The notes under the pieces are model-generated. The model saw only the letters and a program-made list of their open reading frames with translations, searched no databases and had not been told where the DNA came from. The translations under genes were made by a program, and so were the position numbers. From NCBI GenBank assembly GCA_949296825.1, contig CASFQZ010000080.1:1-48965 (forward strand): a stretch of 48,965 nucleotides of DNA. Reading direction: 5' to 3'. Source of the stretch: an uncultured Eubacteriales bacterium. GTDB taxonomy: Bacteria > Bacillota > Clostridia > Oscillospirales > Acutalibacteraceae. Numbering within the stretch: the first letter of the stretch is position 1; each line of letters begins with the position of its first letter. Below are positions 17,318 to 32,381 of this stretch, in pieces.

Positions 17318-18721
17318 TTACAGCTGCAAATCAAAATAACTTTTCGCATTCTCAAAGGCGATGCCCCGGACAATCTCCGTCAGACGGGCGGTATCGTTGG
17401 GATATTGTCCGCTTTCGACCAGGAAGCCGATCAAATCGCAGACAATGCGGCGAAAATACTCATGCCGGGGGTACGAGAGGAAGGAGCGGCTGTCGGTCAC
17501 CATGCCGACAAATTTGGACAGCACACCCAGATTCATCAGCGCCTGCATCTGCGCGCGCATCCCGTCGATATTATCATTGAACCACCACGCCGAGCCGAAT
17601 TGGAGCTTGGAGACCGCGTCGTCGTTCTGGAAATTACCGAGCATGGAACCCAGCACATAATTATCCTTGGGATTCAGGGCGAAAAGGATGGTTTTCGGCA
17701 GCGCATCCTCCTCGGCAAGGGAATCCAGAAGGCGGGAAAGCGGCTGCGCCACCGGCGCGTCGGCAATGGAGTCGTAGCCGGTGTCCGCGCCCAGCAGGCG
17801 GAACATTTTGGCGTTGTTGTTGCGCATGGCGCCGATATGGATCTCCATCGCCCAGCCGTGCGCCGCGTACTCCTTCGCCAAAAAGCGCATAAGCTCGGTC
17901 TTGTAGGCGGCAATCTCCTCCGGCGTCAGCGCGTCGCCGCGCAGGGCTTTTTTGTAAATCCGATTCACCTCGCCCGGCTCCGCGCGCAAAAACAGCACCT
18001 CGGTCAGCGCCTGGTCGGAAGCGCGGCAGCCCAGGGAATCGAAATCCTCAATGCGGGTCGCCAGCGCGTCGCAAAGGACCTCAAAATTGTCCAGGCGGCG
18101 GTTGACCCGCCCCTCCAGCTCATGGATCCAGCCGGCGAAGGTCGATAGCTCTATACCCAGCGCCTTATCGGGGCGGAAGGCGGGAATGACCTTGCAGGAG
18201 AAGCCGCCCTCCTCCTTGAGCATCCGGTGATAGTCCAGGCTGTCCGCCGGGTCGTCGGTGGTGGCGACGCAGACAACATTGGATTTTTCAATCAGCGCCC
18301 GGGGCGTAAAGCCCCCCGCCCTGATTTTTGCATTGGCTTCGTTCCAGATCCGGTCGCAGGACGCTTCGCTCAGCGGCTCGTCAATATCAAAATACCGCTG
18401 CAGCTCCAGATGGGTCCAGTGATACAGGGGATTGCCCAGAAGATAGGGCATGGCGCCCGCCCATGCGCGGAATTTTTCATAAGAAGAAGCGTCGCCGGTG
18501 ATATACCGCTCCGGAATGCCGAGGCTGCGCATGGCGCGCCATTTATAGTGGTCGCCGCCCAGCCAGAGCTGGGTCAGGTCCTGCGGCGTCTCGTTTTCAT
18601 AAATTTCTTTAGGCGAAAGATGACAATGCCAATCGAAAATCGGCTCCCGGCGGCAGGCGGCAAAGAGGGACTTCGCCGTGTCGGTGGAAAGCAGGAAATC
18701 ATCATCCATAAATTTTTTCAT
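17318..18721 (-). CDS. uxaC: Glucuronate isomerase
   Basis: Interconverts D-glucuronate and D-fructuronate, or galacturonate and tagaturonate (EC 5.3.1.12). The 467-residue product has the metal-binding FDWHCHLSPKEIY (His32, His34) and family blocks LWLGGDHYKWRAMR and LYHWTHLELQRYF. The start is ATG 18721, ten bases after AAGGAG; a GTG at 18730 adjoins the site. No other uronate catabolic gene (uxaA, uxaB, uxuA, kdgK) is nearby. It sits 19 bases after the YfhO-like gene, inside an apparent cell-surface glycan operon, so it may be expressed with sugar synthesis rather than uronate growth. Confidence 0.93.
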   Translation of the reverse strand: MKKFMDDDFLLSTDTAKSLFAACRREPIFDWHCHLSPKEIYENETPQDLTQLWLGGDHYKWRAMRSLGIPERYITGDASSYEKFRAWAGAMPYLLGNPLYHWTHLELQRYFDIDEPLSEASCDRIWNEANAKIRAGGFTPRALIEKSNVVCVATTDDPADSLDYHRMLKEEGGFSCKVIPAFRPDKALGIELSTFAGWIHELEGRVNRRLDNFEVLCDALATRIEDFDSLGCRASDQALTEVLFLRAEPGEVNRIYKKALRGDALTPEEIAAYKTELMRFLAKEYAAHGWAMEIHIGAMRNNNAKMFRLLGADTGYDSIADAPVAQPLSRLLDSLAEEDALPKTILFALNPKDNYVLGSMLGNFQNDDAVSKLQFGSAWWFNDNIDGMRAQMQALMNLGVLSKFVGMVTDSRSFLSYPRHEYFRRIVCDLIGFLVESGQYPNDTARLTEIVRGIAFENAKSYFDLQL

Positions 18722-18740
18722 CAAAAACACTCCTTCGGCA

Positions 18741-21449
18741 TTATTGGAACAGACTCACGATCGAAAAGCCGGCGGGCAGGGCGTAAACGCCCAAAAGCGC
18801 GGCAATATACAAAAGGCAGAACACGCCGTAAACCAGCTTTTCCAGCGGCGCGGGCACCTGAATTGCCTTCTTTTTCAGCGCAAAGATCAGTAAGACGGCA
18901 AGGAGCACAGCGCCGATGGCGCTCAACGCCGCACCGAGGGATAATCCCTCCGGCACAAAGGTCAGCGCCGCCTCCCCTTCGCCCGGGGGCACGGCGATCG
19001 CCATCCAGCCGCCGAAGACCTGATAGATCTGAGCATCGCTGCCGTTGACCTGCGCCCGCCAGCCGCCGTCACAGGAAACGGGCAGGAAGAGATAGCGCGT
19101 CTTGTCGCTTTGATTTTGATAGGTCAGGGAAATCTGACGCCCCTCGGCGGTCAGTTCGGTGCCGTCGCCGGCGTGCAGCGCGGTAAGCTCCTCCATTTTT
19201 TCCAGCGACAAAAAGCCCAGCGCCGGCTCGCAGTCCACCTCGTCCAGGACGCGCAGGCGCACCGTGACAGTCTCATCCTCAAACACACCCAAGAGCAGGC
19301 AATTATTGTTGTATTCGGCGGTATAGGCGGTGTTGTCCTCCCGGTGGTAGGACGGCACCTGAACCGTCTCGCCGTTGACGGAAATCTCCAGCCGGCTCCA
19401 GCTCAGCGCCGGGTCGGTCAGATAAAGGACTTCCTTCCCCACCGCCCGCAGCTCATAGGTGATTTCGGTCGAAGTGCCGGTTTGCCGGAGCATCATCGCC
19501 GGGTCCGTCTGCGGGGTACGGAAAAGGGCGCCGCTGCCGCCCAGGGCGCGGTACAGAAGGTTCTGGTTTTCAAAAACGGCTTCGCTGTTGCCGCTGAACA
19601 TCTGTGTCAGCTCGCAGGAAATCAGCTCCTCGCCGCAGAGCATCCCCACCGGAAGGGTATATTTGTTTTGATACAGGGTATAATCCCCCACATTGCCGGT
19701 CTTTTGATAGAGCTGCTCGGGCAGCTGCTCCTTGGAGACCGTTTCCGTCATATTCAGAAGCGCATCGGAAAGCAGTGTGCCGCCGCCGTCCAGAAGCAGC
19801 GTATAGGTGATGCTGTACCCCAGGGAACGGGCGGCGTATTGCAGTGAAGCGGGGATTTGATGGGTCCAGTTCGACAGCGCCGCCCTGCCCATCACGAAAC
19901 CGTAGTTGATGTTCAGCGACATATCCGGGTTATGCACCCGCTCCAGCTTCGTCGGGTCGGCGGTCAGCTTTTTGCCGGTTTCAAGGGACGGCTCGATGTA
20001 CGCGGTGTCGTGCTCGCGGCGCTCATAGCGGATCGGCGAGCCGGTACCGACGGTTTGCAGCGCAAAGGGAAACAGCATTCCGACACAAAGAACCAGCGTT
20101 ACCGCGTCCACGACGCGCCGGTCCGGCAGCTGGCGAATCAGGTAAAACGTCAGCGCCGAGCAGAATAAAATCGTCAGGGAGAAAAAAAGTGAGGTTTGCT
20201 CCGCAGAGAGGACGCCGACGCTGCCGCCGAACACGGAAAAGGCGGCGGCGGTCACAGCGGCGGTACACGCCACGCCCAAAAACGCCCAAAGGGCGGATAG
20301 GGCAGCTTGCTTTTTCTCTTTTTCCTTTTCTTTTCCCTGCTCCGGCTCGGAAAATTTCCTTGCCGCCAATGAGAGAAGAAGGAAAATCGCCACAAAGCCG
20401 AAGCGGTACGGGAAATCCCGATAGGAGCCGAAGTGCAGCAGCGCGGCGCTTCCCTCCAAAAGCAGGGGAGAAAACAGAAGCAGCAGCGACGCCAGGGCAA
20501 ATTTTGCCGTGCGGGGGTGTTTTTTATATCCAGCCAGCAAAAGCGCCGCGCCCAAAACCGCCAAGCCCATACTGTAAAACATCCAGATGGTATTCTCGTT
20601 CAGCTCGGGCAGCGCCCCCAATATCTCGCGCCAGTCCTCCGTCAGCGCGTACCGGGCGGAATTTTGCATCTGCAAAAAAGCGGGCAGCAGCAAAAACATC
20701 GGCATCAGCCCGCCGACTGCCGTGCCCAGCCCCAGGCGGAACACAGCGGCGGGGCGTTTTTCTTTTTCCAACAGCGTAAACACATAGGCGCCGCTGATCA
20801 GGAAGACGCAAATCAGCGTCATAATGCCCAGATAAAAGCCGGCGACCAGGCTCAGCGCCAGGCAAAGCGCATAGGGAAAGACCCTGCCGCCCTGGAGCAT
20901 TTTTTCGCCGAAATAAAATAAAAGGGGCAGCAGGATCAGCACATCCAGCCAGATGATGTGAAGGTAATATAAAAACACATAGCCGGACAGGGCGTACAGC
21001 ACAGAGAGGACGCTGGAAAGCCCGACGGAGAGCCCCCGAAAGCGGCGGTGGAAGAAGAACTGGGCGCTGACGGCGCAGAGGACAATTTTAAGGATAAGAA
21101 AAATATTCAAAAAATCGACCAGTCCGTCCCGGCTCGTCAGGTAAAAAAGCAGATTCAGCGGGCTTAAAAGTCCGTTGACCGCCGCGACGCCGATCATATT
21201 CACGCCGGTGCCCGACAAAAAGTCAAAAAGCAGCGATTTATCCCCATGCAGAAAATCGTAGAGGTGATAATACATCGGGATATAGCCGTGACACATATCC
21301 ATAATCGCCGCGCTCTGCCCGCCGAAGGGGAAGAAGCCTTTGACGGCGTATAATATCAAAAGAAAAAACAGCGTAATCAGTCCGCCGCAAAGATACGGCA
21401 GAGCTTTTTGCGCTGTTTGGCTGGCGGAGTTTTTAGTTTGCGTCGGCAT
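18741..21449 (-). CDS. YfhO-family membrane glycosyltransferase-like protein
   Basis: A 902-residue protein with about twelve membrane helices in its first 480 residues, a large extracytoplasmic region and C-terminal helices (two near residues 845-895). Early loop residues GQSAAIMDMCHGYIPMYYHL match the YfhO/GT-C pattern with acidic residues in the first outer loop. B. subtilis YfhO works with CsbB and a flippase to glycosylate lipoteichoic acid. The preceding gene here is a CsbB/GtrB-like transferase and overlaps it by 17 bases, which supports the same division of labour. ATG 21449 lies 12 bases after GGAAGG; ATG 21461 abuts that site, so the exact start is uncertain. Confidence 0.8.
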   Translation of the reverse strand: MPTQTKNSASQTAQKALPYLCGGLITLFFLLILYAVKGFFPFGGQSAAIMDMCHGYIPMYYHLYDFLHGDKSLLFDFLSGTGVNMIGVAAVNGLLSPLNLLFYLTSRDGLVDFLNIFLILKIVLCAVSAQFFFHRRFRGLSVGLSSVLSVLYALSGYVFLYYLHIIWLDVLILLPLLFYFGEKMLQGGRVFPYALCLALSLVAGFYLGIMTLICVFLISGAYVFTLLEKEKRPAAVFRLGLGTAVGGLMPMFLLLPAFLQMQNSARYALTEDWREILGALPELNENTIWMFYSMGLAVLGAALLLAGYKKHPRTAKFALASLLLLFSPLLLEGSAALLHFGSYRDFPYRFGFVAIFLLLSLAARKFSEPEQGKEKEKEKKQAALSALWAFLGVACTAAVTAAAFSVFGGSVGVLSAEQTSLFFSLTILFCSALTFYLIRQLPDRRVVDAVTLVLCVGMLFPFALQTVGTGSPIRYERREHDTAYIEPSLETGKKLTADPTKLERVHNPDMSLNINYGFVMGRAALSNWTHQIPASLQYAARSLGYSITYTLLLDGGGTLLSDALLNMTETVSKEQLPEQLYQKTGNVGDYTLYQNKYTLPVGMLCGEELISCELTQMFSGNSEAVFENQNLLYRALGGSGALFRTPQTDPAMMLRQTGTSTEITYELRAVGKEVLYLTDPALSWSRLEISVNGETVQVPSYHREDNTAYTAEYNNNCLLLGVFEDETVTVRLRVLDEVDCEPALGFLSLEKMEELTALHAGDGTELTAEGRQISLTYQNQSDKTRYLFLPVSCDGGWRAQVNGSDAQIYQVFGGWMAIAVPPGEGEAALTFVPEGLSLGAALSAIGAVLLAVLLIFALKKKAIQVPAPLEKLVYGVFCLLYIAALLGVYALPAGFSIVSLFQ

Positions 21450-22494
21450 TCTCCGTGTCATCCTTCCGCGTTTCGCCGGTACCGGCGACTTCCGTTTCCT
21501 CCCTATGTAAATACTCCGGGCTGACAAACCGTGCCTCGCCGATGGGGATCGGCATCTGGGCGCCAAAGTTCAGCCGTTCCTCTTCCACGACCAGCGGACG
21601 CTTCATAATCCGGGAGTTGATATTTAAAACATATTCGCCCAAAAAGCCGATAAAGAACAGCTGGACCGCACCCAAAAAGAACATGCCGATCAGGAGCGGC
21701 GCGGTGCCCATGGGATATTTATCCCAATTGATCAATTTTAAAATAAAGAACACCAGACCGATCACCGCGCTGATGAACGCCATGGCGAAGCCCAGGAAGG
21801 TGGCGAGGCGCAAGCCGATCTTGGTATAGGAGGTGAAGCTGAGCATGGCAGCGTCAAAGAGAGAATAGAAATTGTTGTGGGTCTTGCCCGCCCGCCGTTT
21901 TGCCTGCTCATAGGGAATGTCCTTGCGCTTAAAGCCCAGCTCGGCTACAATGCCCCGCAGGAAGGGACGGCTGTCGTCAATCTCGCGCAGCACTTCGATA
22001 AAGCTGCGGTCATACAGCCCGAAGCCGGTGAAATGCTCGATCTGCTCAACGTCGCTCATCCTTTTGATGACCTTATAATAACAGGTGCGGAAAAAGCGCA
22101 TGATCGGATTTTCCTTACTGGCAGTCTTGATGGCGGAGACGATTTTATAACCCTTTTCCCACTCGGCGACCAGCTTGGGGATCATTTCCACCGGATCCTG
22201 GAAATCGGCGCACAGCAAAACGGTGCAGTCGCCGGTGGACTGGCACATGCCATAATAGGGCGAATTGAACTGCCCGAAATTCTTGGCGTTGAAAATCGCC
22301 TTGATTTTCGGGTTATTGGCGCAAAGCCCGCGGATCAGGGCGCGGGTATTGTCCTGGGAATCATTATCAATGAAGATGATCTCATAGTCGTAGTCCGGCA
22401 GGCTTTTTTGCATCTCATCGATGACCGCCTGACTGATCGGTACGACGTTTTCCTCTTCGTTAAAACAGGGAATGACGATACTGATGGTTTTCAC
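21433..22494 (-). CDS. CsbB/GtrB-like family 2 glycosyltransferase with two C-terminal membrane helices
   Basis: Soluble GT2 domain at residues 1-225 beginning IVIPCFNEEENV, with FNAKNFGQFNSPYYGM and CADFQDP (residues 95-101, the DxD-equivalent of the DLQDP block of GtrB/CsbB/ArnC enzymes). Two helices follow at about 228-254 and 263-290, then FLGEYVLNINSR. Such enzymes load a sugar onto undecaprenyl phosphate at the cytoplasmic face. I chose the GTG at 22494: AAAGG lies nine bases upstream and the protein then begins MKTISIVIPC, as in homologs; ATG 22503 directly touches the ribosome site. The neighbours suggest that the loaded sugar is the CDP-derived one. Confidence 0.82.
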   Translation of the reverse strand: MKTISIVIPCFNEEENVVPISQAVIDEMQKSLPDYDYEIIFIDNDSQDNTRALIRGLCANNPKIKAIFNAKNFGQFNSPYYGMCQSTGDCTVLLCADFQDPVEMIPKLVAEWEKGYKIVSAIKTASKENPIMRFFRTCYYKVIKRMSDVEQIEHFTGFGLYDRSFIEVLREIDDSRPFLRGIVAELGFKRKDIPYEQAKRRAGKTHNNFYSLFDAAMLSFTSYTKIGLRLATFLGFAMAFISAVIGLVFFILKLINWDKYPMGTAPLLIGMFFLGAVQLFFIGFLGEYVLNINSRIMKRPLVVEEERLNFGAQMPIPIGEARFVSPEYLHREETEVAGTGETRKDDTENADAN

Positions 22495-22516
22495 AAGAGG
22501 CATCCTTTCTGACTCA

Positions 22517-23440
22517 TTACAGTCCGAGAACTTCTTTTCGCCAGGCGGCGGTGCGGCGGACTCCTTCCTCAAAGCCGATTTTCGGCGCAAATCCCGTATC
22601 CTGCCGCAATTCCGACAAATCGGCGCAAAGGCGCATGACCTGCCCCGGCGGATAGGGAATCTCCCCCAAAAACAGCGGCGCAGCCGGCGCGACGACATCA
22701 CGCATGGCGGTAATATATGCCGCTAAGGTGCGGTTCTCGCCGCTGGAGAGCGGGTAGATTTTGCTTTCCTTCGCCCTTTCGCCGATCCGGTAAAAGGCGT
22801 CGGCGGCATCGTCGCAATAGAGGAAATCCCAGAGCTGCTCACCCTTGGTGAAGACAGCTTTTTCGCCCTTCAGAAACTTATCGATGGAGGACGGAATGAT
22901 GGAATTGGGGATGCTGCCCACGCCGAAGACGCTTAAGATACGCACCCAGACATGGGTAAGCCCCAGACTGTCCGCGTACAGGCGCGACAGCCGTCCGGCG
23001 GCGAATTTTGCGATGCCGTAGCCGGTCACCGGCTGCACGGCAAGCGAAGCGCTGAGCGTCTGCTCGGTGGGACCCCACTCCGCCTGGGAGCCGGCGCCCA
23101 CAAACAGACGACAGCCCGTCTCCTTCGCCAGCGTAACGCAGTCGACGGTATAGCGGATGTTATTATTTTGCAGATACGGATCGTCCCGCCCGCCGCCGAA
23201 GGTACCCAGCCACGCAAAATGATACAGCACATCGCAGGGCTTGGTAATTTGCTCTTTTGCGGCAAGAAATTCGGAAATATCCGCGTCAATCACATGAACC
23301 AGCGGATGGAGAAGGCAGTCGATCCCCTCGGCGGTGCCGGGTTTGCACAAAGCGAAAACCTCGACCCCCGCCTCGGTCAGGCGGCGGATCAGCGCCGTGG
23401 CGATCATGCCGGTGGCGCCGGTCACGATTGCGGTTTTCAT
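22517..23440 (-). CDS. NAD-dependent epimerase/dehydratase family reductase, probably acting on the CDP sugar
   Basis: Extended short-chain dehydrogenase of 307 residues. The nucleotide motif is TGATGMIA (residues 7-14), the catalytic pair is Tyr141/Lys145 (YGIAK), with an upstream GAGSQAEWG block supplying the Ser. It sits directly after a ThDP enzyme and rfbFGH. By analogy with CDP-abequose/paratose synthases and YerF, it could reduce the 4-keto or newly added acyl group of the CDP-dideoxy sugar. That substrate is inferred from context only. Its ribosome site is weak and a GC hairpin stands in the 77-base gap upstream, so it may be expressed at a different level from the upstream genes. Confidence 0.8.
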   Translation of the reverse strand: MKTAIVTGATGMIATALIRRLTEAGVEVFALCKPGTAEGIDCLLHPLVHVIDADISEFLAAKEQITKPCDVLYHFAWLGTFGGGRDDPYLQNNNIRYTVDCVTLAKETGCRLFVGAGSQAEWGPTEQTLSASLAVQPVTGYGIAKFAAGRLSRLYADSLGLTHVWVRILSVFGVGSIPNSIIPSSIDKFLKGEKAVFTKGEQLWDFLYCDDAADAFYRIGERAKESKIYPLSSGENRTLAAYITAMRDVVAPAAPLFLGEIPYPPGQVMRLCADLSELRQDTGFAPKIGFEEGVRRTAAWRKEVLGL

Positions 23441-23475
23441 AGGATCACCATGCTTTTATGAAAATAGGGAGAAAC

Positions 23476-23511
23476 GCGCCGCCGATCCGGCGAAAAGCGG
23501 TCGGGCGGCGC
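23476..23511 (-). other. GC-rich stem-loop inside the glycan operon
   Basis: GCGCCGCC (23476-23483) pairs perfectly with GGCGGCGC (23504-23511). On the minus strand GTTTCTCCC follows, a poor T tract. It lies between the ThDP enzyme gene and the reductase gene and could act as a partial terminator or RNA-processing element. Confidence 0.4.
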
Positions 23512-23517
23512 GGATCC

Positions 23518-25335
23518 TCAGTCTTTTTTAATCAAAGGAATATACATATTCGCCTTCAGCTCGTCCTCGGGCAGGAAGGGCGCCAGATCCTCCAGCGGCG
23601 GGGACACCAGCGTACCGTCGGGCAGCTTTTTGGTGGCGGATTTCGGCTCGAAGTTCTGCTCGGTGGTCACGACGATTTCACAGAACGCGGGACCGTCGAC
23701 CGCCAGCGTGTCGGCGATGGCGCGATCCAACTCATCATTTTTCGCCGCCTTGAAATAGGGGTAGCCATAGGCAGGCGCGAGCCTGGACATATCGGGAAAG
23801 CTCAAGTCGCCGCTCTGCGGACCGATGCCGACATAATGGGAGTCGAACATATTGGTCTGGGTCTGACGGATGGAGTGATAGCCTGCGTTATTGATCATGA
23901 AAATTTTGATGGGCAGGCGGTTGGTGATGATGGTTTGCAGCTCCTGAATATTCATCTGGAGGCTGCCGTCGCCGGTCAAAAGGATGATCTGTTTGCCGCC
24001 GGCGGCATAACAGGCACCGATGGCGGCGGGCAGGTCATAGCCCATGGAGGCGATGGCGGAGTTGATGAAAAAGCGCGAGCCCTTTTTGATCACAAAGGCG
24101 TGGGACCCGACAACGCAAGCGGAGCCGTTGCCGACCACCGTCACCTGCTGCTCGGGCAGCGCGTCCGACACCTTTTTGACAAAGGCATAGACATTGGCGG
24201 CGTAGTCCTCCTTGAAATGCTTCGGCAGGACGACCGGATATTTCTGCTTCCAGAGCTGACACTGCCGCACCCATTCCCCGGAAAACAGCGGCGCAGTCTC
24301 CCCTTCCAGATAAGCAAGGAATCCCTCGATAAAATCCTTTGCGTCCGCCCAGAGGGGCATATCGGGATGAATGGTCGGTTTTTTCAGCTCCTCGGCGTCC
24401 ACATCGACCACAATTTTATAGGCGGCTCTCGCCCAGGTCTGCCAGTTATAGCCGACCTGACGAATGGAGAGACGGCTGCCGACGCTCAGCAGCAGATCGC
24501 TGTTCTGCACGGCGAAATTGCCGGCCCGATCTCCCATGATGCCGGCTCTGCCGGTATAGAGGGGGTCCGCATCCTCGATCAGGTCAATACTGTCCCAGCC
24601 GGTGACCACGGGGATGCCGAGCTTTTCCACAAGGCGGCGAAACGATTCGTACGCCCCCGCCCAACGGATGCCCGCTCCGGCGTTGAACACCGGGCGCTCG
24701 GCAGTCTTGATTTTTTCGACGATGGTCCGATACACTTCCGCACCGGGCTTCGGCGGCGGCGTTTCGTCGTCCGCACCGTCGTAGCCGCACAGCTCGTCGG
24801 TGTCCACCGTCGCGCCCTGGATGTTCAGCGGAATATCCAGCCAGCAGGGACCGGGTCTGCCGCTGTGCGCCAGGTGGAAAGCCTTTTCCAGGCAATAGCG
24901 GATCTTATTTTTATCGGTCACCATCTCGCAATATTTGGTCATAGAGGCGACCGCTTTGCAGATGTCGAACTCCTGATCGCCCATGGCGCGGATACCAAGA
25001 CCGGTGGAACGGGCGGTGGTGTCATAGCGCACCTGTCCGGAGATAATCAGCATCGGGATCGAATCCAGCCAGCCGCCGACCACGCCGGTGATGGCGTTGG
25101 TGCCGCCGGGACCGGTGGTCACGCAGACCGCCGCGATTTTATTTTCCAGTCGGGCATAGCTTTCCGCCGCAATGGCGCACGCCTGCTCGTGATGGTTATA
25201 CACACAGTGAAGCCCTTTCTGGTGTCCCAGCGCATCGTTCAGATGCATCGCGCCGCCGCCGGTGACGGTAAAGGCGGTGTCGATGCCGTGCTCGACCAGA
25301 AAGGACGAAACATATTCGCTGACTTTGATTTTCAT
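23518..25335 (-). CDS. Thiamine diphosphate-dependent enzyme of the acetolactate synthase superfamily (YerE-like context)
   Basis: 605 residues with the three-domain acetolactate-synthase plan: N-terminal PYR domain with Glu50 in YNHHEQACA (the cofactor-activating Glu), central domain, and C-terminal PP domain with GDG at 455-457 and NN at 482-483, the ThDP/Mg motif. It ends with a tail of about 40 residues. In a biosynthetic ilv context this would be IlvB, but no ilvN, ilvC or ilvD is present; instead it is flanked by rfbH and a sugar reductase. In Yersinia, YerE of the same superfamily adds a two-carbon unit from pyruvate to a CDP-4-keto-3,6-dideoxy sugar. I infer a comparable role. ATG 25335 follows GGGGAGAG. 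Confidence 0.78.
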   Translation of the reverse strand: MKIKVSEYVSSFLVEHGIDTAFTVTGGGAMHLNDALGHQKGLHCVYNHHEQACAIAAESYARLENKIAAVCVTTGPGGTNAITGVVGGWLDSIPMLIISGQVRYDTTARSTGLGIRAMGDQEFDICKAVASMTKYCEMVTDKNKIRYCLEKAFHLAHSGRPGPCWLDIPLNIQGATVDTDELCGYDGADDETPPPKPGAEVYRTIVEKIKTAERPVFNAGAGIRWAGAYESFRRLVEKLGIPVVTGWDSIDLIEDADPLYTGRAGIMGDRAGNFAVQNSDLLLSVGSRLSIRQVGYNWQTWARAAYKIVVDVDAEELKKPTIHPDMPLWADAKDFIEGFLAYLEGETAPLFSGEWVRQCQLWKQKYPVVLPKHFKEDYAANVYAFVKKVSDALPEQQVTVVGNGSACVVGSHAFVIKKGSRFFINSAIASMGYDLPAAIGACYAAGGKQIILLTGDGSLQMNIQELQTIITNRLPIKIFMINNAGYHSIRQTQTNMFDSHYVGIGPQSGDLSFPDMSRLAPAYGYPYFKAAKNDELDRAIADTLAVDGPAFCEIVVTTEQNFEPKSATKKLPDGTLVSPPLEDLAPFLPEDELKANMYIPLIKKD

Positions 25336-25357
25336 AAAACTCTCCCCCTGTCGGACA

Positions 25358-26689
25358 TCAGGCGTTCCGTACCGCCTCGGTGACGATACGAGCCATATAA
25401 TCCAGCATTTCATCCGTCATACCCGGATATACGCCGATCCAGAACGAATCGTTCATAATCCGGTCGGTCTGGGAGAGGTCGCCGACAATACGGTACCCCT
25501 CGCCGGTTTTGCGCATTTCGTCAAAACAGGGGTGCTTGGTCAAATTGCCCGCGAACAGCATTCTGGTCTGCACGCCGTGGCTTTCGACAACATCGACCAC
25601 CCTTTTGCGGTCAATCCCGTTCCGGCAGGTCATGATAAAGCCAAACCAGCTGGGATCGGAATTTTCGCACGCCACCGGCAGGATCAGCTTGTCGGAAACT
25701 CCTTCCAGCGCCTGATGCAGACGGGCAAAATTATGCTTCCTGCGCTCGACGAAGGAGGGGAATTTTTCCAGCTGGGCGCAGCCGACCGCCGCCTGCATAT
25801 CGGTCGCCTTCAGGTTATATCCGAAATGAGAATAAACATACTTATGGTCATAGCCCAGCGGCAGCTCGCCGTACTGGCGGTCGAACCGGTGACCGCAGAG
25901 GTTGTCCTGACCGGAGGCACAGGAGCAGTCCCGCCCCCAGTCGCGGATGGAGCGCATGATTTTATGAAGCAGCGGGTCGTTGGTATAAACAGCACCGCCC
26001 TCGCCCATGGTCATATGATGGGGCGGATAAAAGCTGGAGGTGCCCAGGTCGCCGACCGTGCCGGTGAAATATTCCTTTCCGTCCAGCGTATATTTGGAGC
26101 CGAGCGCATCGCAGTTGTCCTCGATCAGCCACAGGTTATGCTTTTTGCAAAACGCCTGAACGGCTTTCAAATCAAAGGGATTGCCCCGCGTATGGGCGAC
26201 CATGACCGCCTTGGTTTTGTCGGAAAGAGCCTGCTCGAGCATGGCGACGTCGATGTTGTCGTGGGGACTGGGCACTGCCACAAACACCGGCACCGCGCCG
26301 TATTGAATGATCGGCGTGACGGTGGTCGGGAACCCTGCCGCCACGGTAATCACCTCATCGCCGCGGCACACGCGCCGCTCGCCCAGAAGGGGCGAGGTGA
26401 GCACGCTGAACGCCAGCAGATTGGCGCTGGAGCCGGAATTGACCAGCGCGCAATGGCGCACCCCCAGATACGCCGCGAATTTTTTCTCAAATTCATTGGT
26501 ATAGCGTCCGGCAGTCAGCCAGAATTCCAGCGCGCTGTCCACCAGATTGACCATCTCCGCGCTGTCGTAAACGCGGGAGGCGTAGGGAATGCGCTGCCCC
26601 GGCTGAAACGGGGACTTCTGGTTATGGTATGTGTCACAGTACGATTTCACCGCACTGAGGATGGCTTCTCTTGCGTCTTTTTCCGTCAT
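25358..26689 (-). CDS. rfbH: CDP-4-keto-6-deoxyglucose 3-dehydrase (E1)
   Basis: A PMP/[2Fe-2S] enzyme that removes the C3 hydroxyl of CDP-4-keto-6-deoxyglucose, giving the 3,6-dideoxy skeleton. It is an aminotransferase-fold protein whose PLP lysine is replaced by His (FYPPHHMTMGEGGAV, His224/225), the hallmark of E1. The cluster ligands are all there: Cys193 (DNCDALG), Cys255-x-Cys257 and Cys265 seven residues later. The spacing from Cys193 to Cys255 is 61 residues, four more than I recall for the Yersinia enzyme. E1 needs a reductase, E3 (RfbI/AscD/DdhD), which I do not find in the window. Length 443 is normal. Confidence 0.92.
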   Translation of the reverse strand: MTEKDAREAILSAVKSYCDTYHNQKSPFQPGQRIPYASRVYDSAEMVNLVDSALEFWLTAGRYTNEFEKKFAAYLGVRHCALVNSGSSANLLAFSVLTSPLLGERRVCRGDEVITVAAGFPTTVTPIIQYGAVPVFVAVPSPHDNIDVAMLEQALSDKTKAVMVAHTRGNPFDLKAVQAFCKKHNLWLIEDNCDALGSKYTLDGKEYFTGTVGDLGTSSFYPPHHMTMGEGGAVYTNDPLLHKIMRSIRDWGRDCSCASGQDNLCGHRFDRQYGELPLGYDHKYVYSHFGYNLKATDMQAAVGCAQLEKFPSFVERRKHNFARLHQALEGVSDKLILPVACENSDPSWFGFIMTCRNGIDRKRVVDVVESHGVQTRMLFAGNLTKHPCFDEMRKTGEGYRIVGDLSQTDRIMNDSFWIGVYPGMTDEMLDYMARIVTEAVRNA

Positions 26690-26722
26690 GTTCTTACAAA
26701 GTCCTTTCGCGTTACTCGTTCT

Positions 26723-27778
26723 TTATTCCGAAAAAAACTCCTGAATTTGCCTTAGCGCCGCTTCGGCGGTATCGCCGCCGGCGGCATAGACCTTCGTCCA
26801 TTCCACGGTTTTTTCCACCGCCTGCGCTGCCGTCCAGACCGGCTGCCAGCCAAAGGTTTTCCTGGCAAGGGAGCAGTCCAGCTTAAGGAAATTCGCCTCA
26901 TGGGGACCGTCCTTCTGCACGGCTTCCCAGCGCTGTCCCTCGCCCCAGCTGCGGCAGAAAATCGTCGCCAGCTCGCCGGTGGTCAGGCAGTCGGCGTCGT
27001 TGGGGCCGACGTTGTAATAGCCCTGCAAGGTGCTGTCCTGCGCCTGGCGGGCGACGATGGTCAGATAGACCGCCAGAGGCTCCAGCACATGCTGATAGGG
27101 GCGGATGGAATTGGGATTGCGCACACGGATGGGCGTTTTTGCCATGGCGGCGCGCACACAGTCGGGGATGATGCGGTTCGCGGCAAAGTCGCCGCCGCCG
27201 ATCACATTGCCCGCCCGGGCGGTAGAGACCGCCACGCCTTTCTGGTCAAAGAAGGAGACTTTATAGCTGTGGGTCACCAATTCGGAGCAGGATTTGGAAT
27301 TGGAGTAGGGATCGTACCCGTCCAGCGGCTCGTTTTCCCGATAGCCCCAGCACCATTCGTTGTTCTGGTAAACCTTATCGGTGGTAACATTCAACACCGA
27401 GCGCACCGTGTCGGACTGGCGCACGCATTCCAGCAAATTGACGGTACCCATCACGTTGGTTTCGTAAGTATAGCGCGGCTGCTCATAGGAGGTGAGCACA
27501 ATGGGCTGCGCCGCCAGATGAAAGACCAGCTCCGGCGCGGCTTCGTCAAACGCCTCTTTCAGGCGCGCTTCATCGCGGATGTCGCCGATCACCGAATGGA
27601 TTTGATCCTCGACGCCAATCATCGAAAACAGGTTCGGGTTGGTCGGCGGCTCCAGCGCGTAGCCGGTCACCTCGGCGCCGGCATAGGTCAAAATCTTGAC
27701 CAGCCAGGAGCCCTTGAAGCCGGTATGTCCGGTCACAAAAACGCGCTTGCCTTTATAAAAATCAAGAACAGAATTCAT
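26723..27778 (-). CDS. rfbG: CDP-glucose 4,6-dehydratase
   Basis: Extended short-chain dehydrogenase that turns CDP-glucose into CDP-4-keto-6-deoxyglucose (EC 4.2.1.45). The NAD motif is TGHTGFKGSWL (Gly17, 20, 23), followed by the active-site TTDK at 132-135 and Tyr158/Lys162 in DPYSNSKSCSE. HLAAQPIVLTSYE is characteristic of this branch. Length 351. Two adjacent ATG codons are available; the second (27778) is seven bases after GGAG and is preferred. It lies between rfbF and rfbH with gaps of 18 and 33 bases, the standard order of CDP-dideoxyhexose clusters. Confidence 0.93.
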   Translation of the reverse strand: MNSVLDFYKGKRVFVTGHTGFKGSWLVKILTYAGAEVTGYALEPPTNPNLFSMIGVEDQIHSVIGDIRDEARLKEAFDEAAPELVFHLAAQPIVLTSYEQPRYTYETNVMGTVNLLECVRQSDTVRSVLNVTTDKVYQNNEWCWGYRENEPLDGYDPYSNSKSCSELVTHSYKVSFFDQKGVAVSTARAGNVIGGGDFAANRIIPDCVRAAMAKTPIRVRNPNSIRPYQHVLEPLAVYLTIVARQAQDSTLQGYYNVGPNDADCLTTGELATIFCRSWGEGQRWEAVQKDGPHEANFLKLDCSLARKTFGWQPVWTAAQAVEKTVEWTKVYAAGGDTAEAALRQIQEFFSE

Positions 27779-27796
27779 CATATCTCTCCGAAGGGA

Positions 27797-28573
27797 TCAA
27801 TCCCAGTTTTTCCAGGGGGCGTTGCCGCTTGCCCATAATTTTTCCAACAGCTCTTTATCGCGCATGGTATCCATCGGCTGCCAGAAGCCCTGATGCTTAT
27901 AGGCGTTGAGCTGCCCGGTTTTGGCTGCCTGCTCCAGCGGGTATTTTTCAAAGACGGTGGCGTCGCCCTCGATCAGGTCAAAAATCCCCTGCTCCAGCAC
28001 CATAAAGCCGCCGTTGATAAAGCCGCCGTCCTGGGCGGTTTTCTCCCGGAACTCCTGCACGTTCTGCTTTTCGTCAATATCAATGACGCCGAAGCGCTGG
28101 GTCAGCTGGATGGCGGTCAGGGTCGCCATCTGCCCCTTCTCCTGATGGAATCGAACCAGCTGATCAATATCAACATCCGAAACGCCGTCGCCGTAGGTCA
28201 TCATAAAGGGCTCGCCGTTCAGATGGGGACGGATGCGCTTGATTCTGCCGCCGGTCATGGTATTTAACCCCGTGTCGACCACCGTAACCTTCCACGGCTC
28301 GGAATATTCGTTATGAACCAATATTTTGCCGCCGCTGGTAAAATCAAAGGTAATATCACTGCGGTGCAGGTAATAATTGGCGAAAAACTCCTTGATCACC
28401 TGCTGCTTATAACCGGCGCAGATGATAAAATCATTGTAGCCGTACGCGGAGTAATGCTTCATGATATGCCACATGATCGGCATCCCGCCGATCTCGATCA
28501 TCGGTTTGGGGCGCAGATGGCTTTCCTCGCTGATGCGGGTACCGAAGCCGCCGGCAAGAATCACAACTTTCAT
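27797..28573 (-). CDS. rfbF: Glucose-1-phosphate cytidylyltransferase
   Basis: Makes CDP-glucose from CTP and glucose 1-phosphate (EC 2.7.7.33), the committed step of the pathway that rfbG and rfbH continue. The N terminus is the nucleotidyltransferase signature LAGGFGTRISEESHLRPKPM, with the RISEE form specific to RfbF rather than RmlA or GalU. The length of 258 residues fits. Gene order rfbF-rfbG-rfbH is that of dideoxyhexose clusters in enterobacteria. It is the first gene of the long operon; a promoter and a hairpin lie in the roughly 100-base leader. Confidence 0.94.
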   Translation of the reverse strand: MKVVILAGGFGTRISEESHLRPKPMIEIGGMPIMWHIMKHYSAYGYNDFIICAGYKQQVIKEFFANYYLHRSDITFDFTSGGKILVHNEYSEPWKVTVVDTGLNTMTGGRIKRIRPHLNGEPFMMTYGDGVSDVDIDQLVRFHQEKGQMATLTAIQLTQRFGVIDIDEKQNVQEFREKTAQDGGFINGGFMVLEQGIFDLIEGDATVFEKYPLEQAAKTGQLNAYKHQGFWQPMDTMRDKELLEKLWASGNAPWKNWD

Positions 28574-28744: not shown

Positions 28745-29848
28745 TCAGCCGTTCGCCACGGCAATCACAATCTGCTTGCCGGTGAAATCATACACCGCCG
28801 CCACGCTTTCGCTGCCGGACTTTTCATAGAGAGCGGCGACCTTTGCGGCGTCAATGGTTTTCTGGGCGCAGGTAAAGCCGCAAGCTTCCAGGAAGTGGAG
28901 ATAGGATTCAAACAAAACAAAATCCGTCACATTGCGCTCGGCGGAATAGAAATAGGCGACATAGCCGATCTGATAGCGGGATTCGACGCAGAGCTTGCCC
29001 GCGTAGCTGTCAAAATCGGGGACGGAGGAATCCGGATAAAAGCTGTCCGCCTCTCTGGCGACAAAATTCACGGTCATTTCGCAGGAAAGCTCCTGCCAGC
29101 GGACGGTAAATTTCTTTTCGCCGGGCAGCTCGCTCGTTAAGTTTTCCGGCTCGATGGTAAAGCCGCCGTCCAGCAGGGCGTGGCTCGCGTCGGGATAGAC
29201 GGCAATGACCTGCACCGCCTTCGGGTCCAGGGCGCTGCCCGCCTGGGGGGCCTCGCCGGTATAATAGGCATAAATCGCCAGCGCCTCGCCGGCTTCGGGC
29301 GTTCTGCCAATGGGATTCGTAAGCTGCTCAAGCCCCACCGCCGCCCGCAGCGCCCTGCGCGCGTCGGCGGTCGTCACCTTGCCATCGGCGTCGCAGTCGG
29401 CTGCCAAGGCAACGGCGGCAGGCAACTGCTCCAGCTTTGTCGCGCAGCGCAGAATGGAACGCGCGTCCGACGTTTTGACAAAGCCGTCGCCGTCCGTGTC
29501 GCCGAAGACGGCAAACACGCCGATATCCAGCACCGCGTCGCCATCGGTCACAAGGACCAGCGTACCGGTGCAAAGGCGGGTATCGGCATAGGGCAGCACC
29601 TCCCCGCCGGGAGAAAGAAAGAGCATCCGCTCGCCCGCCGCAAAGCGCGCGGCGGCGTCGGAAAGATCATCGCCCGGCAAAAAACCGGTAATCATCTTGA
29701 CCGAATCGGACAGATAAACCGCAACGGTGTCGGAATGGTCCGAAAGGGAAAGGCTTTCCCCTTCGGCAAAAACGGGCAGACCGCCGCCGCAAAGCAGCAG
29801 CAAAACCAAAAGACAGGACACCGCCTTTGTCAAATGCTGATATTTCAT
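28745..29848 (-). CDS. Secreted protein with type I dockerin-like repeats
   Basis: 367 residues. A signal peptide (residues 1 to about 28, basic start, Leu-rich core, VFA cleavage region) is followed by a region of unknown fold. Two dockerin-type calcium loops follow at about 116-143 (GDTDGDGFVKTSDARSILR) and 151-176 (DCDADGKVTTADARRALRA), each with the DxDxDG and S/T-DA pattern. Next comes a bacterial Ig-like region (about 190-262) and a C-terminal domain I do not recognise. Dockerins bind cohesins on scaffold or wall proteins; no cohesin is encoded here. The dockerin is internal rather than terminal, which is common in non-cellulosomal clostridial surface proteins. GGGAGG precedes the ATG. 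Confidence 0.78.
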   Translation of the reverse strand: MKYQHLTKAVSCLLVLLLLCGGGLPVFAEGESLSLSDHSDTVAVYLSDSVKMITGFLPGDDLSDAAARFAAGERMLFLSPGGEVLPYADTRLCTGTLVLVTDGDAVLDIGVFAVFGDTDGDGFVKTSDARSILRCATKLEQLPAAVALAADCDADGKVTTADARRALRAAVGLEQLTNPIGRTPEAGEALAIYAYYTGEAPQAGSALDPKAVQVIAVYPDASHALLDGGFTIEPENLTSELPGEKKFTVRWQELSCEMTVNFVAREADSFYPDSSVPDFDSYAGKLCVESRYQIGYVAYFYSAERNVTDFVLFESYLHFLEACGFTCAQKTIDAAKVAALYEKSGSESVAAVYDFTGKQIVIAVANG

Positions 29849-30056: not shown

Positions 30057-30077
30057 CCGATATCTGGTGACTAAAAT
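30049..30077 (+). promoter_or_regulatory. Promoter of the nfnAB operon
   Basis: TTGACA (30049-30054), 17-base spacer, TAAAAT (30072-30077). The start codon is 69 bases downstream. Confidence 0.8.
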
Positions 30078-30145
30078 AGGCTGTATTCTAAGGATAATGT
30101 ATAATAATAACTACTGAAAATTTGATTGTAATCGAGAGGATACCT

Positions 30146-30994
30146 ATGTACCGAATCTTCAAAAAGGAAGTGCTGAACCCGACCACCACCTCGATGTGGG
30201 TCGAGGCACCCGCCGTGGCGAAAAAAGCCCAGCCGGGGCAGTTCATCATTCTGCGGGCGGAGGAGGACGGCGAGCGCATCCCGCTGACCGTCGCAGACAC
30301 CGACCCGCAAGCCGGGCTGGTACGCATCATTTTTCAATCCGTCGGCGCGACAACGATGAAGCTTTCCCGCAAGGAAGAGGGCGACGCGATCCCGGATTTT
30401 GCCGGACCTCTGGGCAACGCCACCTACACCGCCGGTTTGAAAAAAGTGGCAATCGTCGGCGGCGGCGTCGGCTGCGCCATTGCCTATCCGGTGGCGAAAA
30501 AGCTGCATCAGCAGGGCTGTGAGGTGCATTTCATCGCGGGCTTTCGCAACCGGGACGCCATTATTTTGCGGGAGGACTGCGAAAAGGTCAGCGATCGGTT
30601 CCTCCTTTGCACCGACGACGGCTCCGCCGGCAAAAAAGGCGTGGTGACCGACGCGCTCAAGGAGCTGTTGGACAGCGGCGAGAGCTACGACGAGGTCTTT
30701 ACGGTGGGACCGCTGATCATGATGAAATTTGTCTGTGATATGACGAAGATATACCGCCAGAAGACCGTGGTCTCGATGAATCCGATCATGATCGACGGCA
30801 CGGGCATGTGCGGCGGCTGCCGCCTGACGGTCGGCGGCGCCATCTGCTTTGCCTGTGTGGACGGTCCGGAATTTGACGGACATCTGGTGGATTTTGACGA
30901 GATGATCAAGCGCAACGGCGTCTATCGCGACTGGGAGCGCCACGCGTATGACGAGACCTGCAATCTGTTGAAGGGGGCGGCAAGCCATGGCTGA
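30146..30994 (+). CDS. nfnA: NfnA: small subunit of NADH-dependent ferredoxin:NADP+ oxidoreductase
   Basis: 282-residue FAD/NAD-binding protein of the dihydroorotate-dehydrogenase electron-transfer (PyrK-like) family. The FAD domain fills residues 1-95; the NAD motif is AIVGGGVGCAIAYPV (103-117); a [2Fe-2S] site near the end uses Cys222, 225, 234 and 237 (GTGMCGGCRLTVGGAICFAC). With NfnB it forms a bifurcating transhydrogenase that couples NADH and reduced ferredoxin oxidation to reduction of two NADP+. The start is ATG 30146 after GAGAGGA; the frame to 30122 has no site. The 8-base overlap with nfnB supports a complex. PyrK is excluded by the partner gene. Confidence 0.9.
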   Translation: MYRIFKKEVLNPTTTSMWVEAPAVAKKAQPGQFIILRAEEDGERIPLTVADTDPQAGLVRIIFQSVGATTMKLSRKEEGDAIPDFAGPLGNATYTAGLKKVAIVGGGVGCAIAYPVAKKLHQQGCEVHFIAGFRNRDAIILREDCEKVSDRFLLCTDDGSAGKKGVVTDALKELLDSGESYDEVFTVGPLIMMKFVCDMTKIYRQKTVVSMNPIMIDGTGMCGGCRLTVGGAICFACVDGPEFDGHLVDFDEMIKRNGVYRDWERHAYDETCNLLKGAASHG

Positions 30995-32381
30995 TCAGAA
31001 AAACCTGCGGCGGCAGCCCATGCCGGTACTGCCGCCGAGAGAACGGATTTATTCCTTTGCGGAAGTGGCGCGGGGCTATGACGAGACCGAAGCGGTGGCG
31101 GAAGCGACCCGCTGCCTGCAATGCAAAAACGCGCCCTGTGTCAAAAAATGTCCGGTCAATATCGACATTCCGCGCTTTATTCAAAAAATCAGCGAGGGCG
31201 ATCCGGAGGGCGCCTACGGCGTGATCTCCGAGCAAAGCTCCCTGCCCGCGGTTTGCGGCAGGGTATGTCCCCAGGAGAGTCAATGCGAAAGCGTCTGTAC
31301 CCGGGGCATCAAGGGCGAGAGCATCGCCATCGGGCGGCTGGAGCGCTACGCGGCGGACCATCACCGCAAAAGCGGCAGCAAGCATCCCGAAGCAAAGCAG
31401 AAAAACGCGCACCGGGTGGCGGTTATCGGCTCCGGACCCTCGGGGCTGAGCTGCGCCGGCGAGCTGGCGCGGCGGGGCTATGATGTAACGGTTTTTGAGG
31501 CGCTGCACCAGGCCGGCGGCGTGCTGGTATACGGCATTCCCGAGTTCCGCCTGCCTAAAAATATTGTCAAAAGCGAGCTTGCCGCTCTGGAAAGTCTGGG
31601 GGTGCGCTTTTGCACCAACACCATCATCGGCAAAACCTTTACGGTGGATGAGTTGCTGACGGAGGAGGGCTACGAGGCGATCTTCATCGGCAGCGGCGCG
31701 GGACTGCCGCGTTTTTCCGGCATTCCCGGCGAAAGCCTCTGTGGTGTATATTCTGCCAACGAATTTTTAACCCGCACCAACCTGATGAAAGCCTATCAGT
31801 CCGACAGCGCGACGCCGATTCGTCCGGCGCGCAAGGTCGCCGTTATCGGCGGCGGCAATGTCGCCATGGACGCAGCCCGGGTCGCAAAGCGCCTGGGCGC
31901 CAAAGACGTCACCGTCGTTTATCGCCGCTCGGAAGCAGAGCTGCCCGCCCGGAAAGAAGAATATGAAAACGCCCTGGAGGAGGGCGTCAGCTTCCAGTTC
32001 CTGACCGCGCCGATCCAGATCCTTTCCGATGTCAAGGGCTTTGCGCGGGGGATGCTGTGTGAAAAAATGGAGCTGGGCGAGCCGGATGTTTCGGGACGCC
32101 GCCGTCCTGTGCCCGTGCCCGACTCCGATTTTATCGTGGACACCGACTGTGTCATCGTCGCCATCGGCACTTCGCCGAATCCGCTGATCACCTCCACCAC
32201 CGACGGGATCATCACCAACCAGAAGGGCGGCATTATGACAGATGAAAACGGCATGACCAGCCGTCCCGGCATCTTCGCCGGCGGCGACGCGGTCACCGGC
32301 GCGGCAACGGTCATTCTCGCCATGGCAGCCGGGAAAAAAGCCGCCGACTCCATTGACCGCTACATCAAAAGCAGGCATTGA
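30987..32381 (+). CDS. nfnB: NfnB: large subunit of NADH-dependent ferredoxin:NADP+ oxidoreductase (GltA-like)
   Basis: 464-residue protein of the NADPH-glutamate-synthase small-chain family. The N-terminal domain has two Cys sets for [4Fe-4S] clusters: Cys43, 46, 51, 55 (CLQCKNAPCVKKC) and Cys90, 94, 100, 104 (CGRVCPQESQC..C). The FAD motif is AVIGSGPSGLSCAGEL (about 145-160) and the NADPH motif AVIGGGNVAMDAARVA follows near residue 285. Together with the adjacent nfnA it is NfnAB rather than glutamate synthase, because no gltB large subunit is present. This supplies NADPH in strict anaerobes. A terminator follows ten bases after the stop. Confidence 0.9.
   Translation: MADQKNLRRQPMPVLPPRERIYSFAEVARGYDETEAVAEATRCLQCKNAPCVKKCPVNIDIPRFIQKISEGDPEGAYGVISEQSSLPAVCGRVCPQESQCESVCTRGIKGESIAIGRLERYAADHHRKSGSKHPEAKQKNAHRVAVIGSGPSGLSCAGELARRGYDVTVFEALHQAGGVLVYGIPEFRLPKNIVKSELAALESLGVRFCTNTIIGKTFTVDELLTEEGYEAIFIGSGAGLPRFSGIPGESLCGVYSANEFLTRTNLMKAYQSDSATPIRPARKVAVIGGGNVAMDAARVAKRLGAKDVTVVYRRSEAELPARKEEYENALEEGVSFQFLTAPIQILSDVKGFARGMLCEKMELGEPDVSGRRRPVPVPDSDFIVDTDCVIVAIGTSPNPLITSTTDGIITNQKGGIMTDENGMTSRPGIFAGGDAVTGAATVILAMAAGKKAADSIDRYIKSRH

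Follow-up and report, generated by a model that had tools for sequence, protein, structure and literature searches.

A clostridial operon that probably makes a yersiniose-like branched sugar and exports it on a lipid carrier

Introduction

Can a clostridial bacterium make a branched dideoxy sugar resembling the yersiniose of Yersinia O-antigens, and by what route would that sugar reach the cell surface? The question is raised by seven genes on a contig of an uncultured Eubacteriales bacterium (Acutalibacteraceae; GenBank assembly GCA_949296825.1, contig CASFQZ010000080.1), whose full length of 48,965 nucleotides is here called the window; it is contig C80 of a 2.1 Mb assembly that is 92% complete. 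The genes encode RfbF, RfbG and RfbH, a thiamine diphosphate (ThDP) enzyme, a short-chain dehydrogenase/reductase (SDR), a family 2 glycosyltransferase (GT2) and a YfhO-family membrane protein (Table 1). The operon probably makes a yersiniose-like sugar and exports it through a lipid carrier and a GT-C-type transfer, and sequence comparisons support a predicted route in which CDP-4-keto-3,6-dideoxyglucose synthesis is joined to a YerE-like branching enzyme and to polyprenyl-phosphate/GT-C export. We also lean, with less assurance, towards a more specific proposal: that the GT2 would read CDP and load a two-carbon-branched 3,6-dideoxy sugar onto undecaprenyl phosphate, as the fixed core of a class-wide decoration system (36 of 393 genomes) in which the outer transferase (YfhO, PMT_2, GtrII, perhaps GT87) and the acceptor are swapped by lineage. 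The weight given to these and to the competing readings derives from the base-reading position of the GT2 and from the co-occurrence of the genes across genomes.

Gene order and related loci

All seven genes are intact and co-directional on the minus strand, running from 28573 to 18741. With the chosen starts, the gaps measure 15 bases between rfbF and rfbG, 33 between rfbG and rfbH, 22 between rfbH and the ThDP gene, 77 between the ThDP and SDR genes and 13 between the SDR and GT2 genes, while the GT2 and YfhO genes overlap by 17 bases. The start chosen for the ThDP gene is MKIKV at 25335; an alternative upstream ATG at 25413 overlaps rfbH. An earlier note, made from the sequence alone, had described this run, and its gene-level observation is confirmed. 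The single direction of the seven genes holds, the gaps it gave as 14-77 bases are corrected to 13-77 bases plus the overlap, and the span it named, 21433-28573, omits the YfhO gene (18741-21449). Its interpretation, a branched dideoxy sugar attached outside the cell by a carrier-lipid route, is partly supported.

Three comparison sets were used: 80 related loci on named contigs (some of them cut by contig ends), 60 relative genomes and 393 genomes of the class. The closest relatives in named records are six loci (L017-L022) with ThDP proteins 80-92% identical to that of the window, from metagenome-assembled genomes (MAGs) labelled Clostridia, Eubacteriales or Ruminococcaceae, several of which come from rumen or omasum. 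An unbroken rfbF-rfbG-rfbH-ThDP-SDR-GT2 run is present in 26 of the 80 related loci and a ThDP-SDR-GT2 run in 47, and because these runs recur the operon is more than a chance arrangement.

Table 1. The seven genes of the operon, in order from rfbF, with window coordinates and the basis of each assignment
Gene or product	Coordinates	Strand	Basis
rfbF, glucose-1-phosphate cytidylyltransferase	27797..28573	-	TIGR02623 397.4 bits, cut-off 300.25
rfbG, CDP-glucose 4,6-dehydratase	26723..27781	-	TIGR02622 443.5 bits, cut-off 278.45
rfbH, CDP-4-keto-6-deoxy-glucose 3-dehydrase (E1)	25358..26689	-	NF011936 701 bits, cut-off 423
YerE-like ThDP enzyme	23518..25335	-	JanthE 8rph 457 bits; tree
Extended SDR, proposed side-chain ketone reductase	22517..23440	-	PF01370; invariant Y141/K145; structure model
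Polyprenyl-phosphate GT2, two C-terminal transmembrane helices, altered donor pocket	21433..22503	-	GtrB sll0501 homology, residues, tree
YfhO-family GT-C membrane glycosyltransferase	18741..21449	-	PF09586 324 bits, cut-off 28.5; structure model

The CDP-sugar genes and the YerE-like enzyme

RfbF, RfbG and RfbH all score above the NCBIfam equivalog cut-offs. RfbH aligns with its solved E1 homologue 3bcx over residues 1-433 (500 bits) and shares with it a C-x-C-x7-C motif and a His-His pair; both of these, together with ED-x-CDA, are kept in 39 of 39 RfbH proteins longer than 400 amino acids from the related loci. We take the cysteines to hold a [2Fe-2S] cluster and the histidine to replace the pyridoxal phosphate lysine, as in the Yersinia E1. 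From the three assignments, the expected product is therefore CDP-4-keto-3,6-dideoxyglucose.

The next protein carries the three TPP domains PF02776, PF00205 and PF02775, all above cut-off, with GDG at residue 481 and NN at 508, which bears out the motifs reported in the earlier note. Its best solved homologue (8rph, 457 bits, with the best solved acetolactate synthase next at 240 bits) is JanthE, a YerE-like enzyme (PMC12188165), with which it shares 238 of 587 aligned residues. In a tree of 34 rows, where long branches are flagged and JanthE is the sole characterised YerE-like member, the window protein, 21 proteins from the 80 loci, one from relative genome G014 and JanthE form a clade with support of 100/99, and a divergent protein of genome G035 joins just outside it (99/96). 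IlvB, IlvI, Gcl, PoxB and Oxc stand apart, as do two other ThDP proteins of the window genome. The genome's own ThDP protein L001 sits in an unresolved fork with acetolactate synthase rows; four more TPP_enzyme_C matches are listed for this genome, one being that of the window. A grouping with catabolic IlvB proteins, which the earlier note had set as fatal to its model, is thus not seen. An identity as an acetolactate synthase, catabolic or biosynthetic, with no tie to the sugar genes is very improbable: acetolactate synthases are its top NCBIfam models (326 bits), but all those listed stay below their cut-offs, the JanthE score far exceeds that of the best solved acetolactate synthase, and the tree places the enzyme within the JanthE clade, apart from the acetolactate synthase rows and L001. 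On the scores and the tree that identity was discarded.

Eight of the nine JanthE residues named in PMC12188165 as FAD-stabilising or pocket residues can be placed in the printed chain, and Y297, K567 and F564 are kept in the window protein. In Yersinia, YpYerE draws activated acetaldehyde from pyruvate and joins it to CDP-3,6-dideoxy-4-keto-D-glucose; no decarboxylase-superfamily subclass other than the YerE-like lyases is known to form tertiary alcohols from isolated ketones (PMC12247030). A search of plasmid records for YerE-like proteins gave 33 records; the 30 listed reach identities of at most 33%, those with an annotation being mostly acetolactate synthases, and so supplied no second YerE-type reference.

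The SDR has a Tyr (Y141) and a Lys (K145) that are invariant in 31 sequences. Its structure model (pLDDT 96.6) matches NDP-sugar epimerases, dehydratases and reductases in a structure search, which shows fold class only. Mirror-tree correlations were all positive; their statistics ignore species phylogeny and they are not used as evidence.

The donor pocket of the GT2

The GT2 has a PF00535 domain and, as the earlier note described, two C-terminal helices, which show as hydrophobic windows at 229 and 265. Among solved structures the closest homologue is GtrB sll0501, a polyisoprenyl-phosphate glucosyltransferase (153.6 bits, with ArnC next), to which it aligns over residues 7-307. In GtrB, D43 bonds uracil N3 (PMC5526996), a base that Asp39 of SpsA reads likewise (PMC3849446), and D157 is the putative catalytic acid, its D157N variant being inactive (PMC4728340). 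These positions were compared across 71 cassette GT2s (68 from the loci, that of the window and those of genomes G018 and G035). The D43 position is Asn, the D157 position Gly and the Arg122 position Lys in 71 of 71, and the D94 position (the first Asp of the DXD motif) is Cys, Ala, Val, His or Asn and never Asp; at D43, D94 and D157 the window protein has N, C and G. The metal ligands D96 and Q98 are kept throughout the 71, as is R200. In a set of 26 other GT2s, E. coli YfdH (GtrB) and ArnC among them, Asp43 is kept in 24, Asp94 in 24, Asp157 in 23 and Arg122 in 19.

An altered pocket with its metal ligands kept fits a donor other than a UDP-sugar. Since N3 of uracil is a hydrogen donor and N3 of cytosine an acceptor, Asn in place of Asp would suit an enzyme that reads CDP. 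Asn at this position is no proof by itself, because an unlinked GT2, L144, has it too. The loss of the first DXD Asp was also considered as a pointer to a C3-deoxy sugar and dropped, since that Asp is described as contacting C2.

In the GT2 tree, all 26 cassette GT2s used form one clade with support of 100/100. Among the 60 relatives, a GT2 of at least 67% identity is present in the same 9 genomes that bear RfbH, and the next best matches reach at most 36% (E 1e-20 or better). By these comparisons the cassette GT2 is an orthologous group of its own. We know of no polyprenyl-phosphate transferase that uses a CDP-sugar, although no exhaustive search for one was made.

Co-occurrence across genomes

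Among the 60 relatives (ThDP threshold E <=1e-100; RfbH over its curated cut-off), the ThDP enzyme is found in 10 genomes and RfbH in 9, with both in 9, the ThDP enzyme alone in 1 and RfbH alone in none (Fisher test 6.8e-10; 1.6e-4 when counted by genus). The genome out of line, G014, carries a ThDP enzyme of 51% identity on a contig of 6 kb (L166, G014:C81), beside a gene of protein cluster c17, a HAD protein and an epimerase-family protein, and has no RfbH; this enzyme may branch a different keto sugar. In the 393 class genomes, with a ThDP threshold of E <=1e-90 that admitted matches down to 35% identity, the ThDP enzyme occurs in 38 and RfbH in 44 (43 over cut-off), both together in 34 (Fisher test 1.3e-35), the ThDP enzyme alone in 4 and RfbH alone in 10. 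Of the ThDP-only genomes, G158 and G359 have matches of 38-39% and G308 and G460 matches of 64-66%.

The GT2 (threshold E <=1e-80) was found in 31 of the 34 class genomes with both genes, as against 1 of the 10 with RfbH alone (Fisher test 2.9e-6); the three genomes without it have ThDP matches of only 37-40% identity. The GT2 therefore tracks the branching enzyme and not RfbH alone. The genes need not lie together: RfbH was sought in 50 of the 80 genomes behind the named loci and is over cut-off in 48, the exceptions being L072 and L040, where RfbH is cut by a contig end. No rfbH lies in the fetched locus in 39 of the 50 (L032 has a 27% paralogue), and 38 of these 39 have rfbH elsewhere in the assembly. 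When the rfbH regions of four such genomes were opened, all four had a LicD-like gene. In three of them, an Enterocloster bolteae MAG (L171), C. symbiosum (L169) and C. fessum (L168), rfbGH or rfbFGH were also accompanied by a GT2 of another kind, with 36-38% identity to the known set; the fourth, a Lachnospiraceae MAG (L170), had no such GT2.

These distributions bear on a different account, in which the CDP-sugar genes and the GT2-YfhO pair are unrelated neighbours, the GT2 using a common UDP-sugar as CsbB does while another transferase takes the branched sugar. Where PMC8035078 states a sugar for a GT-A/GT-C pair, it is Gal, Glc or GlcNAc, while for some pairs it is given as unknown, and PgfS is the NCBIfam model that the GT2 matches best (NF047588, 180.5 bits, under the cut-off of 500). 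Against this stand the tracking of the ThDP enzyme by the GT2 across the class, the position of the GT2 directly after the ThDP-SDR pair in 47 of 80 loci, and the missing UDP-reading Asp in all 71 cassette GT2s. We regard such a division of labour as unlikely. The earlier note had named a GT2 restricted to UDP-sugars as a result that would undo the joined pathway; the residues with which GtrB reads UDP are absent from the cassette GT2s.

Two further protein clusters were seen in the related loci. A sugar C-methyltransferase-like gene (Methyltransf_14, cluster c13) lies between the SDR and GT2 genes in 16 loci, including L042, L051, L057, L069 and L083, and is followed in 15 of the 16 by a second SDR or a zinc dehydrogenase, which suggests that these loci make a further modified branched sugar. 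Cluster c10 lies upstream of the ThDP gene in L083 (8285-9727, minus strand) and 22 other loci; its L083 member resembles choline-binding repeat proteins, below cut-offs. Cassette pieces also occur in L045 and L078, on contigs labelled Desulfovibrionaceae and Candidatus Methanomethylophilus, by transfer or mis-binning.

The outer transferase and the acceptor

The YfhO protein is modelled as a GT-C transferase. The best PDB matches that Foldseek returns for its AlphaFold model (mean pLDDT 86) are AftD (E 8e-9) and, at E <0.001, oligosaccharyltransferase (OST) subunits and AftA, with query TM-scores of 0.30-0.46 and rmsd of at least 12 A; its Asp51 is invariant in 19 rows. AftD, OST and AftA are GT-C enzymes (in part PMC8035078). 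GT-A/flippase/GT-C systems are described with GT-C domains that include YfhO and PMT-2 and with flippases of the GtrA or Wzx types (PMC8035078).

YfhO genes number five in the window genome (from six matches, two of which share a frame), which puts the chance of one lying within 10 kb of the cassette at about 5%. The place of YfhO differs among the related loci: in L017-L022 and L068 it is downstream of the GT2, in L024-L031, L048, L049 and L165 upstream of rfbF. Other GT-C-type genes directly follow the GT2 elsewhere, namely a GtrA-PMT_2 fusion in L038, GtrII in L035 and PMT_2 in L167, and L092 has a GT87 gene three genes after the GT2; GtrII and GT87 are here taken to be GT-C types.

Lipoteichoic acid, the acceptor that the earlier note associated with YfhO, is not supported, since none of the three sulfatase-family proteins checked among the four matches in the genome is LtaS-like, the fourth match being weak. 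One of the three has five N-terminal hydrophobic windows yet carries a CxPxR motif, and we read it as an arylsulfatase; the other two are arylsulfatase-like. A different setting is seen in loci with clusters c8 and c9 (27 of 80 each; one member of each was scanned), where the GT2 is followed by more GT2-type glycosyltransferases, usually with a polyprenyl sugar-phosphate transferase and an LCP protein, which suggests a wall-linked polysaccharide.

For the window, the acceptor may be either a wall glycopolymer or a surface protein. The second, in which a secreted or surface protein would be O-glycosylated as by PgfS/PgfM of Streptococcus mutans and not a wall polymer, is the less likely choice and keeps perhaps a modest chance. 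The best NCBIfam matches of the GT2 and YfhO are to PgfS (180 bits) and to PgfM2 and PgfM1 (109 and 108 bits), and L017-L019 share a secreted dockerin-type protein encoded just ahead of rfbF; but the scores lie far below the cut-offs of 500, 1500 and 1400, and the c8 and c9 loci show the wall-polysaccharide setting.

The proposed pathway and the points against it

By the known pathway, RfbF, RfbG and RfbH, assigned by curated models, would convert glucose-1-phosphate and CTP to CDP-4-keto-3,6-dideoxyglucose. The ThDP enzyme, judging from its kinship to JanthE and YerE, would then decarboxylate pyruvate and add a two-carbon acetyl unit to the C-4 ketone, pyruvate being the presumed donor because no aldolase gene is seen beside it, and the SDR would reduce the acetyl side chain to hydroxyethyl. 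The GT2, whose residues are seen and whose specificity is predicted from them, would move the sugar from CDP to undecaprenyl phosphate. A flippase would turn the lipid-sugar outward, for which the candidates are three GtrA-family genes above cut-off elsewhere in the window genome, and YfhO would transfer the sugar onto an acceptor at the surface, probably a wall glycopolymer and possibly a protein.

Several observations weigh against this pathway. The SDR is weakly conserved, with a mean identity of 40% in the mirror-tree set and 27-29% for L042, L067 and L069. Among the JanthE residues, V121, Y268, P293, H494 and S498 are not kept. The YfhO gene is present in only 22 of the 80 loci (18 by clustering, L043 and L053 by partial matches, L061 and L088 by Pfam matches), and the operon contains no flippase gene. 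L144, an unlinked GT2 whose genome (G036) yielded no RfbH and no ThDP enzyme, sits on a long branch within the cassette clade; the cassette GT2 also occurs in 1 of the 4 class genomes with the ThDP enzyme alone and in 3 of the 345 with neither gene; and L072 has the ThDP, SDR and GT2 genes in a genome whose best RfbH match reaches 136 bits. Finally, the E3 reductase that the earlier note supposed to work with RfbH did not turn up: no classical E3 was found, the genome's only two NAD_binding_1 matches being PyrK-like and NfnA-like. Because the assembly is incomplete, this is a gap and no proof of absence.

The same pathway with another branch is a possibility that we hold at well under even chances: a longer keto acid, or an SDR acting at a different site, would give a branched 3,6-dideoxy sugar other than yersiniose, for instance an erwiniose- or caryophyllose-like one. 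ErwE and the M. marinum enzyme favour longer hydroxylated keto acids (PMC12247030), and V121 and H494 are among the JanthE positions that have changed. An HMGL-type gene (cluster c17) lies near the ThDP gene in 8 of the 80 loci (L045, L054, L063, L071, L088, L093, L094 and L096); the best match of its L096 member, the only one scanned, is 4-hydroxy-2-oxovalerate aldolase, below cut-off, and the c17 protein may supply a longer keto acid and hence a different branch. However, a Pfam scan of 20 window ORFs showed no HMGL-type gene, nor does one occur among those genes of L017-L022 that were clustered (their unclustered ORFs lie outside the scan, and L020 and L022 are short contigs), and pyruvate needs no aldolase. 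For the window, the two-carbon branch from pyruvate is the one we prefer.

Relation to known systems

The CDP-dideoxy pathway, YerE-like branching and GT-A/GT-C wall decoration are already known. As far as the literature searched shows, three things are new: the joining of these parts in one clostridial cassette, how widely that cassette occurs, and the residue signature of its GT2; nothing on clostridial yersiniose was found in that literature. The closest biosynthetic parallel is the yersiniose pathway of the Yersinia O-antigen, in which the same CDP-sugar enzymes (RfbFGH/DdhABC) are followed by a YerE-like enzyme and then an SDR. In contrast, the present cassette is clostridial, no E3 was found, and the sugar apparently goes to polyprenyl phosphate and a GT-C enzyme and not into an O-unit. 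JanthE (PDB 8rph), from Janthinobacterium sp. HH01, shares the tree clade of the window enzyme, which differs from it in having GDG in place of CDG and in several named pocket residues.

On the export side, the PgfS-PgfM1-PgfE-PgfM2 system serves protein glycosylation in Streptococcus mutans. It supplies the closest NCBIfam models for the GT2 and YfhO, at scores far below cut-offs, and its epimerase is replaced in the cassette by the CDP-sugar pathway. The multi-component CsbB/GtcA/YfhO systems have the same GT-A protein with two transmembrane helices and the same GT-C YfhO, and GtrA-type flippases are present in the window genome; in the cassette the donor pocket is altered, and the sugars that PMC8035078 states for such pairs are Gal, Glc and GlcNAc.

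The earlier note knew of no Gram-positive system of this composition. This is true only in part: Mycobacterium marinum MMAR_2332 and M. gastri MygE are YerE-like and concern branched sugars outside Gram-negative O-antigens, in this case glycolipid sugars with other branches, and the available text of PMC12247030 makes no mention of a GT2-YfhO partner. For the joined clostridial cassette the statement stands as far as the literature searched goes. A sugar of the same kind, terminal yersinose, is reported from a gut bacterium, Bacteroides fragilis 23745M1, in a Gram-negative capsule (PMC12413058), and a 2024 paper lists more than 200 YerE-like genes.

CDP-cillose and CDP-cereose are Bacillus sugars with a C-methyl branch. 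Their pathways are named in PMC7725333, and CDP-paratose genes are predicted for the flagellin of C. butyricum (PMC13317340).

Implications and neighbouring genes

If the proposed pathway is correct, a sizeable share of Clostridia would display yersiniose-like branched sugars at the surface. The carriers include records named Clostridium symbiosum, Enterocloster and C. fessum, where RfbH is encoded at a locus apart from the ThDP-GT2 genes. Lipid-carrier wall decoration would also extend to CDP-sugars, with a short residue signature. Yersiniose-like sugars are antigenic in enterobacteria, and for that reason the trait could bear on how commensals are recognised by the immune system and adsorbed by phages. 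The literature consulted places such sugars in the surface polysaccharides of Gram-negative bacteria, and their relatives in mycobacteria and among actinobacterial antibiotics.

An NfnA/NfnB-like pair adjoins the operon on the plus strand (window 30122-30994 and 30987-32381; NF004862 and TIGR01316, above cut-off). It was considered as a possible electron source for RfbH. Opposite its first gene lies a minus-strand ORF (30071-30988) without a Pfam match. Two secreted-looking dockerin-type repeat proteins are encoded on the minus strand at 28745-29848 and 32504-33304 (PF00404, the first just under cut-off), and it is a homologue of the first that stands just upstream of rfbF in L017, L018 and L019. 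Directly downstream of YfhO is a glucuronate isomerase gene, UxaC (17318-18730, minus strand), homologues of which (cluster c18) lie near the cassette in 7 of the 80 loci.

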